DNA of 32,498 nt, taken from positions 1 through 32,498 of the forward strand of contig VGWI01000019.1 in the NCBI GenBank assembly GCA_016873655.1, in the 5' to 3' direction. Shown here piece after piece: positions 14,643 to 31,423 of this stretch. The translations under genes were made by a program, and so were the position numbers. The first letter of the stretch is position 1, and every line of letters starts with the position of its first letter. The notes beneath the pieces were generated by a model. It saw only the letters and a program-made list of their open reading frames with translations. It had not been told where the DNA came from and made no database searches. Source of the stretch: Lentisphaerota bacterium. Lineage in GTDB: Bacteria > Verrucomicrobiota > Kiritimatiellia > UBA8416 > VGWI01.

Positions 14643-14774
14643 GGAGGGGCATGTTACTCCCGTATCCTCCGCCGGGCAACAGGATGGAGAGGGGCCTCCG
14701 GATGAATGGCGAAGGATGTGGCAAGCGCGAATGCTGCGCGTTAGTATGTGCCAGGTTTCAGATGCGGAGGGATG

Positions 14775-15620
14775 ATGGGCGCGCCGAGTGTAGTGGTAAC
14801 AACATATGACTCGCCTCGCACGCTGCGGCTCGTTCTTCTGGCGCTCGCACGCCAGACGCTGAAGCCGGCGGTTGTCGCCGTGGCTGACGACGGGTCCGGG
14901 CCCGACACCGCCGCCATGCTGCGCCAGGCGGCGTTGGCAATGCCTTTCCCCATAGTGCATGTCTGGCAGCCGGATGACGGGTTCAGGCTTGCGCGCAGCC
15001 GGAACAACGCCTGGCGGGAGCTGCCCGAAGGCCGCGTCGCAATGCTTGACCAGGACATTATTCCCCATGCCGGATGGCTTGAGGCCCATGCCGCGCCTGG
15101 GAAGGGACGCGTCGGGCTCGGCGCCGCCATGGATCTTCCTGAATCCGCCGTCGTGGAAATCACTGAAGACGCTGTTACGTTCGGCCGGTTTGAGTCCATT
15201 CTTGCCCCCGGAGAGATGGGCCGTCTGCGCAAACTGCGGAGGAAGTGCGTTCTTCAAGCCTTCCTGAGGGCCGTCGGGCTGGCACACAGAGCCAAGCCCA
15301 AACTGCGCGGCTGCAACTTCTCGGCTGACCTTTCCGATCTTCGGGCCGTGAACGGGTGTGACGAGGAGTTCGTCGGGTGGGGGCAGGAGGACGACGATCT
15401 CGGTATGCGGCTCTACATGGCCGGCGCCAGGCCGGCCATACTTGTTGACAGCGCGCTTGCTTCCCACCTGTGGCATCCATCAAGGGCGACCGGACGATGG
15501 AAGGACGGGCCGAACGTACGGCGTTTCCAGCGGCGCGACATCGCCGCCCGCTGCGAAAGGGGCATGGATGGCGCGCGTCCGGACGTGAAGGTCTTCAGGT
15601 ACCCTTCCGGTCAGCCGTAA
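14775..15620 (+). CDS. Family 2 glycosyltransferase
   Basis: A 281-residue GT-A-fold enzyme, cytoplasmic face, adding a nucleotide-activated sugar to a glycan. PSVVVTTYDSPRTL starts the fold. AVADDGSG and the DQDIIPH motif (DxD-like metal site) follow, and FVGWGQEDDDLGMRL is the C-terminal ED-type motif seen in GalNAc/Gal transferases of this group. GGAGG at 14766-14770 fits ATG 14775 better than ATG 14772 or the upstream GTG. Its last 26 nt overlap the end of the convergent O-antigen ligase-like gene. Acceptor unknown; probably surface polysaccharide. Confidence 0.85.
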   Translation: MGAPSVVVTTYDSPRTLRLVLLALARQTLKPAVVAVADDGSGPDTAAMLRQAALAMPFPIVHVWQPDDGFRLARSRNNAWRELPEGRVAMLDQDIIPHAGWLEAHAAPGKGRVGLGAAMDLPESAVVEITEDAVTFGRFESILAPGEMGRLRKLRRKCVLQAFLRAVGLAHRAKPKLRGCNFSADLSDLRAVNGCDEEFVGWGQEDDDLGMRLYMAGARPAILVDSALASHLWHPSRATGRWKDGPNVRRFQRRDIAARCERGMDGARPDVKVFRYPSGQP

Positions 15621-16809
15621 TTCCGATCGCCACGGCCGGCAGCCACAACTGAAGGACGTAGGCCAGGTTGTCCGGGAAGTCGCCGAGTCCGTAGACAAGA
15701 AGCAGGACGGCGATGCACCACGTCACGCCAGGCCACAGTCGGTCTCCGAACCCTGTCTGGCGGGAGATATGGCGCAGCAGCAGCGAGGAGACCGTGAACC
15801 ACAGCGCCATGCGCAGCGCAACTCCGACGCATCCGAGCTCAAAGAACGCCTTTATCCAGTACTGGTGCGCGTGGGGAAACACGAACGAAGCTGGCGGCGG
15901 ATTGGACGCGTAGTAGACATCCTGGAAGAGCTTCTTCCCGTAGCCGTGTCCCAGCACCGGGCGACGGAGCGCCAAATCCATCGTATGCGACCACACCACG
16001 CTTCGCTCGTTCAGCGAGCTGACGTCGCCATCCCCGAAGCGCGGGTTGATCAGCGAGATGTTTGCCACGGCGGCTGAGACGGCAGCCGCGAGGAGCAGGC
16101 ACCACAGGAGTTTCTGGCGGCGGGTCGGAAGTATGACCCCGGCGGCTGCAACGGAGGCGGCGAAAGCGATCTGCGGACCGCGCGAGGCCAGCACCATCAG
16201 GTACAGCAGGTTAAGCGCCGCGCCGGCGGCGCATGCCGTCCGCGCGGCCGGCCTGCGCCCGGGTTCAACCGTCGAGGCCGACAGCACGAGCAGCGCCGCC
16301 GCGGCCATGATGCTGGCGACGTTGGGGTGGTTCATGACATAGGGCCGCGCGAAACGCGCCTCGGCCATCAGTCCCGGGCCGAGCTGGACCGCCAGGCGCG
16401 CCAGGTCGACGGCAAGGTAGGATGTGACGGCCCAGGCGCCGGCGACCATTGCGCCCGCGAGACGGCGCGGGGTGAAGAACACGACCGGGATCGCGATGGC
16501 GGCCAGGGTCTGCGGAAGCACCTTCAGGAGCGCGCGTGCCGATGCCGCCGGCGAGACCGAGGCCGGCAACAGCGCCAGCGGCACGGCGACCAGAATGAGC
16601 CACGCCATGCCGGCGGGCGAGCGCCATGCTTTGAATCGCGAGCGGTCCGCGGTCAGAGCGACGAGAAACAGGCAAACGCAGACGGCGAAGTGCGCGAAAT
16701 GGGAAGGCGCGGTCCAGACCGCCATCGACAGCGCGAACGCGATCCCGGCGCGCGCGGCCGCCGGGGCGGAATCGAGCCTGGACATCAGCCGGCCAACAGC
16801 GTTCTTCAC
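15595..16809 (-). CDS. O-antigen ligase / polymerase-like membrane protein
   Basis: About 404 residues with roughly ten to twelve hydrophobic segments and the Wzy_C/WaaL signature in the large periplasmic loop: NERSVVWSHTMDLALRRPVLGHGYG, then HAHQYWIKAFFELGCVG with the conserved His. It would join or polymerise O-chain at the outer face of the inner membrane. I choose the GTG at 16809, which overlaps the upstream hydrolase-kinase stop by 4 nt (GTGA). The track's GTG at 16881 would overlap by 76 nt, and ATG 16785 is another option. Confidence 0.78.
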   Translation of the reverse strand: MKNAVGRLMSRLDSAPAAARAGIAFALSMAVWTAPSHFAHFAVCVCLFLVALTADRSRFKAWRSPAGMAWLILVAVPLALLPASVSPAASARALLKVLPQTLAAIAIPVVFFTPRRLAGAMVAGAWAVTSYLAVDLARLAVQLGPGLMAEARFARPYVMNHPNVASIMAAAALLVLSASTVEPGRRPAARTACAAGAALNLLYLMVLASRGPQIAFAASVAAAGVILPTRRQKLLWCLLLAAAVSAAVANISLINPRFGDGDVSSLNERSVVWSHTMDLALRRPVLGHGYGKKLFQDVYYASNPPPASFVFPHAHQYWIKAFFELGCVGVALRMALWFTVSSLLLRHISRQTGFGDRLWPGVTWCIAVLLLVYGLGDFPDNLAYVLQLWLPAVAIGITADRKGT

Positions 16810-19055
16810 TGCCTGCTCCCGTGTGCCGGCGGGCGCGGCGGCTTGCCGGTTATTCTGCGGATCCACCTGCGCGGTATCCACCGCTTCTTGCCGCGCAGCC
16901 GGTCCTTGAGGAAGTGTTTCAGGTCATACCTCACAAACGGCATGAAGAAGGCGGGGCCGAACCTGACCATATTCTCGTTCGCGTAGGCGGCGAGGAACAG
17001 GCGGCGCCCCTTCCAGTTCAGAGGGTGCAGAACGCGTCGGAGATCGCGCAGGCGGCAGCGGGGCGACACGGCGTGGGTATGAAAACGAGCGCGAGCGGTG
17101 TCGATCAGGCAGAAGACAGGCCTGCCGTTCTCAACGCGCATGAGAATGTTGCCGGCGGAGAGGTCGCGAAAGTACACGCCGCGCCCGTGCATGTTGCCCA
17201 GGAAGCGGGCGAGTGCGCGGTGGACCTCGATTGGGGCGAGCCCGAGATATTCGGTTCGCCCCTTCTTGAAACCGTCGAGCGCTTCGCGGACCGAGCCCTG
17301 CGAGTCGAAGAATTCAGTGGCGAACAGGCCGTTCGTCAGCGTGTCGGCCGGCTGCCAGAGCGCCACGGGGCGGGCGGTGTTGACGCCGCGCCGCAGCAGT
17401 TCCGCGGCCCCGTTCCAGCTCTTCAGAGCCCGCCCGACCCGCCAGCGCTGCATGAACCGCTTGTGGCCGGCGCGGATTCTCACTGTCTTGACGACGATCC
17501 GGCGCGTCGGATCGGAAGGATGCTCCGTTTCAATGACCTTGTTGCGCCGGTCGCGCATGACTCTGCCGGCCGCTGATTCCAGCGCTTCGCGCGTCAGGTC
17601 CGGATCAGGGCCGTTACCGGATCCGGCGCAGACGAACAGGCCTTCCGGTGTTGTCCTGCACGTGAAGCGGACATCGGCGGCCGGCCAGACACGGAGCGCC
17701 TTGACGACCGCGGCCGTGGGCATGACTTCAGGCGCGTCGTCCTGGGGCCACACAAGGTAGACCGGCGACTCGCCGAATGAAGGCGGAGCCGAATCCAGGG
17801 CTTCGCCGTCGCGGGAGTACACAGAAGCGTTTCGCAGGGCTTCGGGCGTGTAGCAGCGCTGCGCGGGCGCGCAGAGACCGTTGGTTGTCCAGACGACATG
17901 GATGACGCGGCCGTCCTTCCGGAAGCAGTGTATCTCCAGACCGTTCCCGGACGACGGCGAACGGTCGTATGTTGCTCCGGCTGTGAAGAGGACGGCGGCG
18001 CGCATTGAGTGGAAGGCCGGGCGAATGCGGTAGCGGCGGGGAGAACCGGGCACGCGTCCGTAGAAGGTGACGTGCGGGACATCCGGGTACTCCATCGTGC
18101 CGTCGTCTATCAGGCCCTCGCGCTGGCTGATGAGCGGGCCCCAGTAGATCCTGTCCGGCGCGCCTGCCGCAGCGAGAAGGCAGAGGTAGCGCGCGCAGTA
18201 GTCAGCCTGCTTATCCTCGGTGTCCGGCAGTATGCGGTTTATGCGGCGCAGGCTCCATGCGACGTGAGTGCTCCAGGTTCGGGTCACGCCGTAGAGCGCG
18301 CCGATGCGCGAGAGCAGAACTGCCTTGCGCACCGTGTTGCATTTCGCGATGCCGGCCATGCCGCGGCCGAGTATCTTCGGGTCAAAGGCTTCCGGTTCCG
18401 TTGCGCGCTCAGCGAACAGGTTGTTCGTATGAATGTCAGGCAGCATCCGCATGTCGCGCAGGATTCCGAGGAGTCCCGCGTTGTAGACGGGTTCGAAGTC
18501 GGTGACATTGGGGCCGGCGAGGGTGACGCCCCTGCGTCTCGCTTCGCCATGGGCGGCGGCCCACGCCGCGAGGAAGCCTTCGGGGCTGTAGCCTGTCCAG
18601 CGTCTACGATTGCATGTCGATCCGATCTCAATCGCGTCCAGGCCGTTGCGGTGACTGTCCAGCATGTCCGAGACAAACGAGCGCCAGCGCGAGACCGCAG
18701 CGGGGGATGGCATCAGCGCCGCTTCCTCGAACGGTTGCACGAGGTGCAGGCAAATCCGGTAGCCTTCGGCCGCGAGGGCCTTGAGAAGGGTTTTCGCCGG
18801 TGTGTTCGCGGAGGTCGGCGAAAAGTCAACGCGAACGTTGCGGACGTTGAGATCGCGGAGACGGTCGAGGACATATCCGACTGAAGCCGGATCATCCCCT
18901 GCCGCCACGCAAATTCCGAAGAAATCGCCTGGCACCGGGTGCTGAACTGCCGGTGCGACCGGAAGGCGCCGGAGCAGTCCGCCGGTTCCCCACGCGCGCA
19001 GATTGTGCGCGGCAAAGGACGCGGCCAGTCTTTTTCCTGTCGGGATTCCGCTCAT
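16806..19055 (-). CDS. Fusion: glycoside-hydrolase-like barrel plus Kdo/WaaP-type LPS kinase
   Basis: A 749-residue protein. Residues about 40-450 resemble a clan-A glycoside hydrolase (GH5/GH39-like TIM barrel plus beta domain): NVRVDFSP, RICLHLVQPFEEA, AIEIGSTCNRRRWTGYSPEGF. Residues about 500-735 match the lipopolysaccharide kinase family: Lys523 in IVVKTVRI, the catalytic loop HGRGVYFRDLSAGNIL (Asp631, Asn636) and LIDTARARF (Asp652). In the hydrolase part the usual EIGNEP motif reads EIGSTCN, so the acid/base Glu is absent. There is no signal peptide, so it is probably cytoplasmic. Start ATG 19055. It is coupled to the O-antigen ligase gene. Confidence 0.75.
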   Translation of the reverse strand: MSGIPTGKRLAASFAAHNLRAWGTGGLLRRLPVAPAVQHPVPGDFFGICVAAGDDPASVGYVLDRLRDLNVRNVRVDFSPTSANTPAKTLLKALAAEGYRICLHLVQPFEEAALMPSPAAVSRWRSFVSDMLDSHRNGLDAIEIGSTCNRRRWTGYSPEGFLAAWAAAHGEARRRGVTLAGPNVTDFEPVYNAGLLGILRDMRMLPDIHTNNLFAERATEPEAFDPKILGRGMAGIAKCNTVRKAVLLSRIGALYGVTRTWSTHVAWSLRRINRILPDTEDKQADYCARYLCLLAAAGAPDRIYWGPLISQREGLIDDGTMEYPDVPHVTFYGRVPGSPRRYRIRPAFHSMRAAVLFTAGATYDRSPSSGNGLEIHCFRKDGRVIHVVWTTNGLCAPAQRCYTPEALRNASVYSRDGEALDSAPPSFGESPVYLVWPQDDAPEVMPTAAVVKALRVWPAADVRFTCRTTPEGLFVCAGSGNGPDPDLTREALESAAGRVMRDRRNKVIETEHPSDPTRRIVVKTVRIRAGHKRFMQRWRVGRALKSWNGAAELLRRGVNTARPVALWQPADTLTNGLFATEFFDSQGSVREALDGFKKGRTEYLGLAPIEVHRALARFLGNMHGRGVYFRDLSAGNILMRVENGRPVFCLIDTARARFHTHAVSPRCRLRDLRRVLHPLNWKGRRLFLAAYANENMVRFGPAFFMPFVRYDLKHFLKDRLRGKKRWIPRRWIRRITGKPPRPPAHGSRQ

Positions 19056-28455: not shown

Positions 28456-28647
28456 TCTTATTTCCCCCGGTATTGTGCATTCCAGCCGCCGCCCCCCGTG
28501 ACTAACGGCGCGCGGCGTAAATGGCGCGCGGATCATAGGTTGGGGGGGCGGTTGCGGGCAAGCTCAAATGCCGTCTTTGCGGCTTGTGTCGGCGGTGTGT
28601 CGGTACGGGTGGCTGGCCAGGGGATGTGGCGGGGCGGTCAAACCCGG

Positions 28648-28676
28648 TTGCGGGGCGATGGGTTGAGGGGTAGAGT
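28648..28676 (+). promoter_or_regulatory. Promoter of the toroid gene pair, very short leader
   Basis: TTGCGG (28648-28653), 17-nt spacer, TAGAGT (28671-28676), then 10 nt to the ATG at 28687. Transcription would begin within about 4 nt of the start codon and there is no Shine-Dalgarno. Confidence 0.45.
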
Positions 28677-28686
28677 GCCTGGCCTG

Positions 28687-29646
28687 ATGACAATCCGTGA
28701 GACGAGAACGAAGCAGCGCGCGCTTACGCAGTCCGAGCGGATGCTCGATGCCGCCCGCGGAGCGCGGAGTTATCTGCCGGCGGAGATGCTTGAAGAAACG
28801 CGAAGCTTCCTGCGCCGTCAGCAGGGGGCCGGCGGGGGGTTCATCGGGCGCGGCGGGAGCGAGGATCTCTACTACACCGTCTTCGGAATAGACGCGATGC
28901 ATGCCGCGGGGATCGAGCCTGACGCGGGGCCGCTCGGCAGTTTTATCCGGTCGTTCGGCGACGGCAACGGACTCGACTTCATGCACTTAAGCTGTCTTGC
29001 GCGGTGCAGGGCCAGGGCGCTGCCGCCCGACCCGGCTGTTGCCGTCCGCGTGTCGCGGCGGATCGAGGAATATCGTTCGCTTGACGGCGGGTACAACCCG
29101 CAGAAGGGGGCAGGGCGCGGCTCAATATACGGCTGCTTCCTTGCGAATGCCGCCTGCGAAGATCTCGGCATCGCCACGCCCGAGCCGGCCAAGTTGCTGA
29201 AAAGCGTTCTTTCGCTGCGCATGGAAGACGGGTACTTCGCGAACGAGTGGGATATTGACCTTGCCAGCACGAACGCGTCGGTTGGCGCGCTGCTGCTGAT
29301 TCGGCGCCTTGGCGGACAGCCTGATCTCAAGTCAGTCGAGTGGCTGATGGAGCAGCGGCATGAGGCAGGCGGAATAAGGGCAGGCCCGCTCGCGCCCTTT
29401 CCTGACCTGGTTTCGACGGCGACGGGCCTCTTTGCGTTGCACGAGTGCGATTCCGATCCGGGGGCCCGGTTCCGTGAAGCCTGCGTCGCGCTTATCGAGG
29501 CCCTGTGGCAGGACGGCGGATTTGCGGGACATCTTCTCGAGGATGCCGCCGATTGCGAGTACACGTTCTACGGGTTGCTGTCGCTCGGGTGTTTGAGCGC
29601 TTTTGCGGGCGGTGGTCGGCAGGAGGGCGAACGAGCGGGTGAATGA
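28687..29646 (+). CDS. Prenyltransferase/squalene-oxidase-repeat protein (alpha/alpha toroid)
   Basis: A 319-residue protein with repeated helical hairpins and Gly-Gly turns: QQGAGGGFIGRGGSEDLYYT, SLDGGYNPQKGAGRGSIYG, MEDGYFANEWD, HEAGGIRAGPLAPFPDLVSTATGLFAL and WQDGGFAGHLLEDAADCEYTFYG. This pattern matches the prenyltransferase beta-subunit/terpene-cyclase toroid. No DxDD is present and the length is about half of an SHC. It overlaps the next gene, so the two products may form a complex. Function beyond the fold is unknown. Confidence 0.7.
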   Translation: MTIRETRTKQRALTQSERMLDAARGARSYLPAEMLEETRSFLRRQQGAGGGFIGRGGSEDLYYTVFGIDAMHAAGIEPDAGPLGSFIRSFGDGNGLDFMHLSCLARCRARALPPDPAVAVRVSRRIEEYRSLDGGYNPQKGAGRGSIYGCFLANAACEDLGIATPEPAKLLKSVLSLRMEDGYFANEWDIDLASTNASVGALLLIRRLGGQPDLKSVEWLMEQRHEAGGIRAGPLAPFPDLVSTATGLFALHECDSDPGARFREACVALIEALWQDGGFAGHLLEDAADCEYTFYGLLSLGCLSAFAGGGRQEGERAGE

Positions 29647-31423
29647 CAGTCGTGAATTCAGGCAGGCGGTTCTTGAGCGCCTGATGGGCGAGCGGGCGGG
29701 GCCGTGCTGGGAGGGGCGTCTTTCCAGCAGTGCGGTTGCCGCTGCGGTAGCGGTCTTTGCGCTTTCGGTCGCGGACCGGTCGGGCCATCGCGAAAGGATA
29801 CGGCGCGGGCTCGACTGGATTGTCCTGGCAAGGAACCCGGACGGCGGCTGGGGCGATTCCCCTGAAAGCCCGAGCAACCTGACCGCGACGGTGCTTGTAT
29901 GGTCGGCGCTTTCGCTTTCCAGGAACGACTTTCCCGCCCATGTCTCGGCGGCGGAGAGCGCGCGCCGCTGGCTTATCGGGCATTGCGGCGGGGACGACGC
30001 GCAAGCCGTGCGGCGCGCGGTCCTGCGCAGGTACGGCGACGACAGGACCTTCGCGGCGCCGATCCTGACGATGTGCGCGCTTTCGGGGAGGCTGGGCCGT
30101 GAGTCCGAGGCATGGGACGCCGTGCCACAGTTGCCGTTTGAGCTGGCCGTACTTCCGAACTGGCTCTTCAAGGCGGTACGCCTCACCGTGGTAAGTTACG
30201 CACTTCCGGCGCTCATCGCCATCGGGCTTGCCAGGCACAGGCGCGCACCTTCGGCCAACCCCGCATTGCGGGCGCTGCGCAATGCGCTTGCCCGGCGTGT
30301 TGTCCGGATCGCCGGTCGGATGCAGCCCTCGAACGGCGGCTACGAGGAGGCCACGCCGCTCACGGCATTCGTCGTGATGAGCCTTGCCTCCGCGGGCCTG
30401 AATGAGAACGAGGTGGTGCGCCGGGGTGTCCGGTTCCTTTGCCAGTCGCAGCGCGATGACGGCGGATGGCCGATAGACACCAACCTGGCGACGTGGCTGA
30501 CAAGTCTCAGTCTGTGTGCGATCGGCAAGGAAGGCGTGGAGACGCTCCTGACGCCTTTTGATCGGCGCGCGATCCTGCAATGGCTGCTGGGTCAGCAGTA
30601 CACGCTGCAGCACCCCCTTACCTTCGGGGCGGCCGGCGGTTGGTCCTGGACCGACCTGCCCGGGGGGATGCCGGACGCGGACGACACATCAGGCGCGCTG
30701 CTTGCGATCCATGCGCTTGCGCCGGATGAGCCTGCTGTGCTTGACGCCGCTCATCGCGGGGTTCGATGGCTTCTCGATCTGCAGAACTCGGACGGCGGCA
30801 TGCCCACGTTCTCAAGGGGGTGGGGCAAGTTGCCGTTCGATCGCAGTTGCCCGGACATCACGGCCCATGCGATGCAGGCGTTTGTCGCGTGGGAACCGCT
30901 TCTTGCCGGTCCGGTGGCGGCTGAGGTAAGGGCGGCGTTCGGGAGGATGACGGCGTATCTCGCACGCAGCCAGGACGCGGCCGGGGCGTGGAAACCACTG
31001 TGGTTCGGGAACCAGCATGTTGCCGGCGAGGGCAACCGCACCTACGGCACCGCGCGCGTACTCCTTGCCATCGAGACCCTTGGCGGCGAAGCGGAGCCGC
31101 GGATTGCGGCGATGCTTGAGCGGGGGCGGCGATGGTTGACTGAGAGCCAGAACGCCGACGGCGGGTGGAGCGGTGACCGTGCGTGTTCCGCGTCGGTTGA
31201 AGAGACGGCGTTGGCCGTGTCCGCGCTTGCACGGTATCCGGGCGCGGCTGATGCCGTGGCCAGGGGAATACGGTGGCTCGACGAGAGAACCCGGGGCGGG
31301 ACGGAATTCCATGCTGCGCCGATCGGCCTGTACTTCGCCAGTCTGTGGTACTCGGAGCGTCTCTATCCCGTGATCTTCACTGCCTGGGCGCTCTCACGCG
31401 CCGGCGGCAGGGGCGGTTGCTGA
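29639..31423 (+). CDS. Squalene-hopene cyclase-like terpene cyclase
   Basis: About 594 residues with QW-type repeats (ARNPDGGWGDSP, QRDDGGWPIDT, LQNSDGGMPTF, QNADGGWSGD). The class II cyclase protonation motif DxDDT appears as DADDT near 346-350, the place expected for SHC. WFGNQHV...NRTYGTARVLLAI aligns with the SHC WGxNYxYGT region but is altered. It could cyclise a squalene-like polyprene at the membrane. Start GTG 29639 overlaps the upstream stop by 8 nt, with AGGAGG before it; the track TTG 29603 is less likely. No squalene synthesis gene is nearby. Confidence 0.75.
   Translation: MNDSREFRQAVLERLMGERAGPCWEGRLSSSAVAAAVAVFALSVADRSGHRERIRRGLDWIVLARNPDGGWGDSPESPSNLTATVLVWSALSLSRNDFPAHVSAAESARRWLIGHCGGDDAQAVRRAVLRRYGDDRTFAAPILTMCALSGRLGRESEAWDAVPQLPFELAVLPNWLFKAVRLTVVSYALPALIAIGLARHRRAPSANPALRALRNALARRVVRIAGRMQPSNGGYEEATPLTAFVVMSLASAGLNENEVVRRGVRFLCQSQRDDGGWPIDTNLATWLTSLSLCAIGKEGVETLLTPFDRRAILQWLLGQQYTLQHPLTFGAAGGWSWTDLPGGMPDADDTSGALLAIHALAPDEPAVLDAAHRGVRWLLDLQNSDGGMPTFSRGWGKLPFDRSCPDITAHAMQAFVAWEPLLAGPVAAEVRAAFGRMTAYLARSQDAAGAWKPLWFGNQHVAGEGNRTYGTARVLLAIETLGGEAEPRIAAMLERGRRWLTESQNADGGWSGDRACSASVEETALAVSALARYPGAADAVARGIRWLDERTRGGTEFHAAPIGLYFASLWYSERLYPVIFTAWALSRAGGRGGC

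Follow-up and report, generated by a model that had tools for sequence, protein, structure and literature searches.

LPS core kinases are important for outer-membrane integrity, and their choice of sugar is little understood. One of these kinases, the LPS core heptose kinase WaaP (PF06293; structure 6dfl), resembles the protein studied here in its kinase fold and catalytic residues and in the LPS-gene context of a sister family, but the solved WaaP is a protein of about 260 residues that covers no more than the kinase half, whereas our protein adds a barrel of ~400 residues. The closest known counterpart of that barrel is PslG, a Pseudomonas aeruginosa endo-glycosidase of the GH39 type (5bx9, 4zn2, 9g17), which has the same (beta/alpha)8 barrel with a C-terminal beta domain and is the best fold match for both of the domain orders reported below. 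The catalytic pair of PslG consists of the acid/base Glu165 and the nucleophile Glu276 (PMC11912335); when aligned to GH39 sequences, our protein instead has Thr147 and His264 at the equivalent columns, where the kinase-first sister family has Ala and Glu. Unlike PslG, our protein is fused to a kinase and lacks an export signal. Finally, the same clade contains GT4-WaaP and GH2-WaaP fusions, which also join a carbohydrate-enzyme domain to a Kdo/WaaP-type kinase but use other carbohydrate folds, and the GH2 version retains both catalytic motifs.

We found no published description of a barrel-kinase fusion in the open-access literature, although one may exist elsewhere. What is new is the fused barrel, its lost catalytic pair and the existence of two domain orders, whereas the kinase is of an already known kind.

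The fusion gene and its neighbors

The window analyzed is the whole of a 32,498-nucleotide stretch (contig VGWI01000019.1 of the Lentisphaerota bacterium assembly GCA_016873655.1), and its features are collected in Table 1. The reading frame of the fusion gene runs through 749 codons without an internal stop, from an ATG at 19055 to a TGA at 16808-16806, as the first-pass annotation had placed it on the correct strand. The frame is open further upstream, and this ATG was chosen as the start because relatives start near the same point. The gene is present in one copy in its own genome, and its product is conserved at roughly 40 to 50% identity in about 20 genomes, from which it follows that the open reading frame is not a chance frame. 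Hydropathy analysis gave no evident signal peptide or transmembrane helix (maximum 19-residue mean, 1.18), in agreement with the earlier claim that a signal peptide is absent.

TABLE 1 Coordinates of the fusion gene, its parts, the adjoining ligase gene and the split gene pairs
Feature	Position	Strand	Evidence or remark
Barrel-kinase fusion gene, 749 aa	16806..19055	minus	ORF, PF06293, conservation, AlphaFold2 model, Foldseek
GH39/PslG-like (beta/alpha)8 barrel + C-terminal beta domain, residues ~40-440	17736..18938	minus	Model, Foldseek, hhalign
EIGSTCNR, residues 143-150	18606..18629	minus	Thr147 in place of GH39 acid/base Glu
His264 codon, end of strand beta-7	18264..18266	minus	In place of GH39 nucleophile Glu
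WaaP/Kdo-type kinase domain, residues ~490-735	16851..17588	minus	PF06293; basic tail at end
Lys523 codon, ATP-binding Lys	17487..17489	minus	Invariant, 15/15
Asp631 codon, catalytic Asp	17163..17165	minus	Invariant, 14/14
Asn636 codon, Mg-binding Asn	17148..17150	minus	Invariant, 13/13
Asp652 codon, Mg-binding Asp	17100..17102	minus	Invariant, 12/12
O-antigen ligase-like gene (Wzy_C)	15595..16809	minus	PF04932, 64.4 bits; probable GTG start
Split kinase/barrel gene pairs	L251:7239-9390 and L252:7427-9542

The stop codon of the fusion gene overlaps the probable GTG start of the Wzy_C ligase gene through the sequence GTGA. The proposed coupling to an O-antigen ligase thus holds for this genome, given the overlap and the Pfam score of the neighbor, but a conserved link is rejected, since no ligase gene was seen beside the fusion gene in the relatives' loci that were inspected. 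A GT2/galactosyltransferase-type gene (window 14748-15620, plus strand) is convergent with the ligase gene. Elsewhere in the window, positions 28531-31423 (plus strand) encode two adjoining alpha-alpha-toroid proteins of the squalene-hopene cyclase/prenyltransferase type. A role in antiphage defense was considered and rejected: PADLOC returned no match for the query protein and only weak, kinase-only matches for a sister protein.

A WaaP/Kdo-type kinase with its catalytic residues in place

The query protein matches PF06293 with 27.7 bits (cut-off, 21.3) over residues 536 to 677, and its relatives score between 21.8 and 57.3 bits. Together with this gathering score, the four catalytic residues Lys523, Asp631, Asn636 and Asp652, which stand where they had been annotated, place the domain in the Kdo/WaaP family; each is invariant when counted only over the relatives that cover its position. 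The NCBIfam equivalog cut-offs are not reached for RfaP/WaaP (12.6 bits versus 170) or for KdkA (21.1 bits versus 142). The protein ends in a basic tail that would suit a peripheral membrane protein, its net charge over the last 60 residues being +13 (relatives, +10 to +13). This known kind of kinase looks able to phosphorylate cell-surface glycolipids.

A GH39-type barrel without either catalytic acid

By sequence, the barrel gave zero matches to Pfam and the PDB; Glyco_hydro_39 (PF01229) likewise had no match in the query protein or in its genome. The fold was recognized in an AlphaFold2 model of residues 30 to 460, built with 57 distant relatives (pLDDT, 82.6; pTM, 0.86), which shows eight strands (residues 46-51, 73-78, 100-105, 139-144, 178-185, 208-213, 259-264 and 302-307) and then a C-terminal beta domain. 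A Foldseek search with this model returned PslG (5bx9) as the best PDB match (E = 3e-18), followed by other GH39 enzymes, which bears out the earlier assignment to a clan-A-type barrel.

Profile-profile alignment of the barrel with GH39, the latter represented by seven matches to the GH39 model from related genomes, gave E values of 6.5e-8 and 2e-8 (hhalign) and placed EIGSTCNR on EVWNEPN and THVAW on GECGC. Thr147 therefore stands at the column of the strand-4 NEP acid/base Glu, as had been suspected from the motif, and His264 stands at that of the strand-7 nucleophile Glu, a second loss on which the first-pass annotation had not remarked. The PslG-like fold is thus present, both GH39 catalytic acids are missing from the query barrel, and an intact hydrolase is rejected, as the relatives agree with the profile alignment at these two columns.

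Barrel-first relatives

A class-wide search of 346 genomes found barrel-kinase homologues in about 19 genomes of many families, the query's own included, and a phylum-wide draw added one more member from another class. The window has relatives in genomes deposited as Kiritimatiellia/Kiritimatiellae, which makes a member of that class its most likely source. A scan of genome contigs with the query sequence alone gave zero matches. The acid/base column of the subfamily holds Thr in 18 of 19 sequences and Val in the other, and the nucleophile column, readable in 17 sequences, holds His (15), Val (1) or Tyr (1); the additional member from the phylum-wide draw has Thr and Asn, respectively. Neither Glu nor Asp occurs at either column in any of the barrel-first sequences aligned. 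The barrel-only member of one genome (G336; L171:1151-2329) lies directly beside an LptF/G gene and has Val in the acid/base column and His in the nucleophile column.

A kinase-first sister family and split genes

Most of the distant matches in the same genomes have the domains in the reverse order, with the kinase preceding the barrel in a single frame of about 735 aa. When 84,980 species genomes were scanned with a profile, 215 relatives emerged, 80 of which were kept, and residues were counted over the 78 readable proteins among them. Kinase-first is the commoner order, with labels that include Kiritimatiellae, Lentisphaerae, Verrucomicrobia (including Akkermansiaceae), Pseudomonadales, Cellvibrio and Marinimicrobium, among others. 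Its acid/base column is occupied by Ala (72 of 78 proteins), Val (3) or, in the remainder, Gly, Thr or Cys, while the nucleophile Glu is present in all 78. His449 is near-invariant (77/78), and roughly a dozen polar residues of the pocket do not vary between phyla. The suggestion that the barrel is catalytically dead therefore stands for the barrel-first subfamily, which has lost both acids, but does not transfer cleanly to the kinase-first family, which has kept its nucleophile Glu.

One full kinase-first protein was modeled separately from the query barrel (pLDDT, 92.6; pTM, 0.90), and its fold matches PslG and WaaP. For the kinase of this family, WaaP (6dfl) is both the nearest solved structure by profile (E = 1e-13) and the best match by fold (E = 7e-11). 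One genome (G056) contains both domain orders. In two genomes of one genus outside the class (G495 and G552), kinase and barrel are encoded by adjacent genes with an 11-base overlap, beside an ABC transporter gene.

A search for the same domain pair in other genomes had been proposed; as the fusion recurs in about 20 barrel-first genomes and in the 78 kinase-first proteins that were read, the possibility that two genes were fused by sequencing is rejected. By the same counts the arrangement is not unique to this gene. Fused in two orders and split as overlapping adjacent genes, barrel and kinase very probably work together.

Positions common to both domain orders

We aligned 75 kinase-first and 16 barrel-first barrels and observed 17 functional-looking positions that are near-invariant in both orders: Q107, W124, E143, N149, R150, W153, D186, F187, E188, R217, P221, E222, K244, W267, R289, W305 and D317. 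In the AlphaFold2 model most of them lie past the C-terminal ends of strands 3 to 8, on what used to be the active-site face. Neither member of the GH39 catalytic pair is included, which in our reading indicates that the function shared by the two orders would not depend on hydrolysis.

With respect to the origin of the two orders, the barrel-first members form one well-supported clade in the trees of both domains, and the kinases of the kinase-first members form one clade as well. When five other kinases are included for comparison, the fused kinases of the two orders cluster together, with moderate support (87/88), a grouping by which a single fusion followed by a reversal is favored but not proven.

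Genomic context

A core LPS gene, counted as LpxK, GT9 heptosyltransferase, lipid A acyltransferase, LptF/G or a KdsD-like gene within 3 kb, was found at 30 of the 80 kinase-first loci and in 2 of the 39 stretches, each up to 18 kb long, that served as controls. The enrichment persists after leaving out the three loci that supplied query proteins (Fisher P = 2e-4), with an effect size that is approximate, as loci of this kind were the source of the query proteins and the control set was one of convenience. The LptF/G, LpxK, GT9 and lipid A acyltransferase neighbors were confirmed by Pfam. The signal is weaker for the query's own barrel-first subfamily, in which 3 of 19 loci have a core LPS gene and 9 of 19 have any LPS, glycosyltransferase, kinase or ABC gene; neighbors there include GT4 with a second Kdo-type kinase, lipid A acyltransferase and LptF/G. 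The query's own genome has a Kdo-transferase-type gene and a cluster of Kdo-type kinases, including a GT4-WaaP fusion (L180:6798-8747, contig C38), accompanied by further kinase-like and glycosyltransferase genes.

Proposed function and alternatives

On balance, we consider it somewhat more likely than not that the query protein is a cytoplasmic LPS-core kinase with a GH39-derived, nonhydrolytic glycan-binding barrel, in which the LPS-core substrate, the binding of glycan and the presenting role are what we infer. The fusion protein would work in LPS core assembly from the cytoplasm, probably as a peripheral membrane protein, and its kinase domain would transfer phosphate from ATP to a sugar of the growing lipid A-core or of another lipid-linked glycan. 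The barrel, presumably descended from a GH39/PslG-type glycosidase and deprived of hydrolysis, would bind the acceptor glycan in the conserved pocket on its old active-site face and thereby set the specificity or timing of the kinase.

Because its nucleophile Glu is invariant, the barrel of the sister family may carry out chemistry and not merely bind, and this residue keeps alive the main, though rather unlikely, alternative, namely, that the kinase-first barrel, perhaps the ancestral one, is a retaining transglycosidase or glycosyltransferase whose product the kinase phosphorylates, the nucleophile having become His in the query subfamily. The Glu would form a glycosyl-enzyme from an activated donor with no need of a general acid, and its invariance, combined with the prevalent Ala at the acid/base column and the near-invariant His449, is the pattern expected if the leaving group needs no acid. 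The polar pocket residues that are invariant across phyla are in line with such a transferase, as are the GT4-kinase and GH2-kinase fusions of the same clade. The query subfamily, however, has the nucleophile replaced by His, Val, Tyr or Asn yet keeps the other pocket residues, so that it cannot use a retaining-transferase mechanism.

It is unlikely that the barrel serves instead as a regulatory or docking module for a protein partner (e.g., acyl-ACP, Lpt or a glycosyltransferase) and not for a glycan. P. aeruginosa WaaP is reported to be stabilized by acyl-ACP (PMC6147952), and kinases of the WaaP type would on that account use protein partners; the barrel-only gene beside LptF/G fits such a module, too. 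Against it, the residues common to both orders cluster where the barrel strands end on the former sugar-binding face and not on the outer helices.

Quite unlikely, in our view, is a scheme in which the kinase-first barrel acts as a cytoplasmic glycosyl transferase, using a phosphate-linked donor to extend the LPS core before phosphorylation, while the query subfamily would have lost this chemistry or rewired it through His264.

With respect to the substrate, we regard it as improbable that the target of the kinase is a glycan other than lipid A-core (capsule, exopolysaccharide, an O-unit or a lipid-linked oligosaccharide). The Wzy_C-type ligase next to the query, the GT4 and Polysacc_synt_2 genes among other neighbors and the exopolysaccharide enzyme PslG as the fold match all point to such a glycan, but the sister-family neighbors LptF/G, LpxK, lipid A acyltransferase and heptosyltransferase argue for the lipid A-core. 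Lastly, although a few relatives are broken or cut short (G050 is frameshifted and G032 lacks the kinase catalytic loop), an assembly artifact or decaying pseudogene has virtually no chance of being the explanation and is already refuted by conservation, as fusions are intact in many independent assemblies, with invariant kinase residues and a conserved pocket.

A kinase that is widespread, carries a former glycosidase in its own chain and occurs in two orders, and once as overlapping genes, would offer a natural setting in which to test whether a glycan is presented to a kinase. The family occurs in phyla that are mostly uncultured and also in Gammaproteobacteria such as Marinimicrobium and Cellvibrio, in which laboratory work would be feasible.

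A GH2 subtype at the same loci

In several loci, a cytoplasmic-looking GH2 subtype with both catalytic motifs (GNE and SEC) is encoded near the fusion gene (e.g., L043:7518-9323). This subtype occurs in 37 of the genomes searched, and 33 of these 37 match the fusion profile as well (hypergeometric P of about 2.5e-13; some of the matches are kinase-only). It is fused to a Kdo/WaaP kinase in G056 (L034:14328-17384), the genome with both domain orders, and its gene adjoins a Kdo/WaaP kinase gene in two others (G328 and G040).
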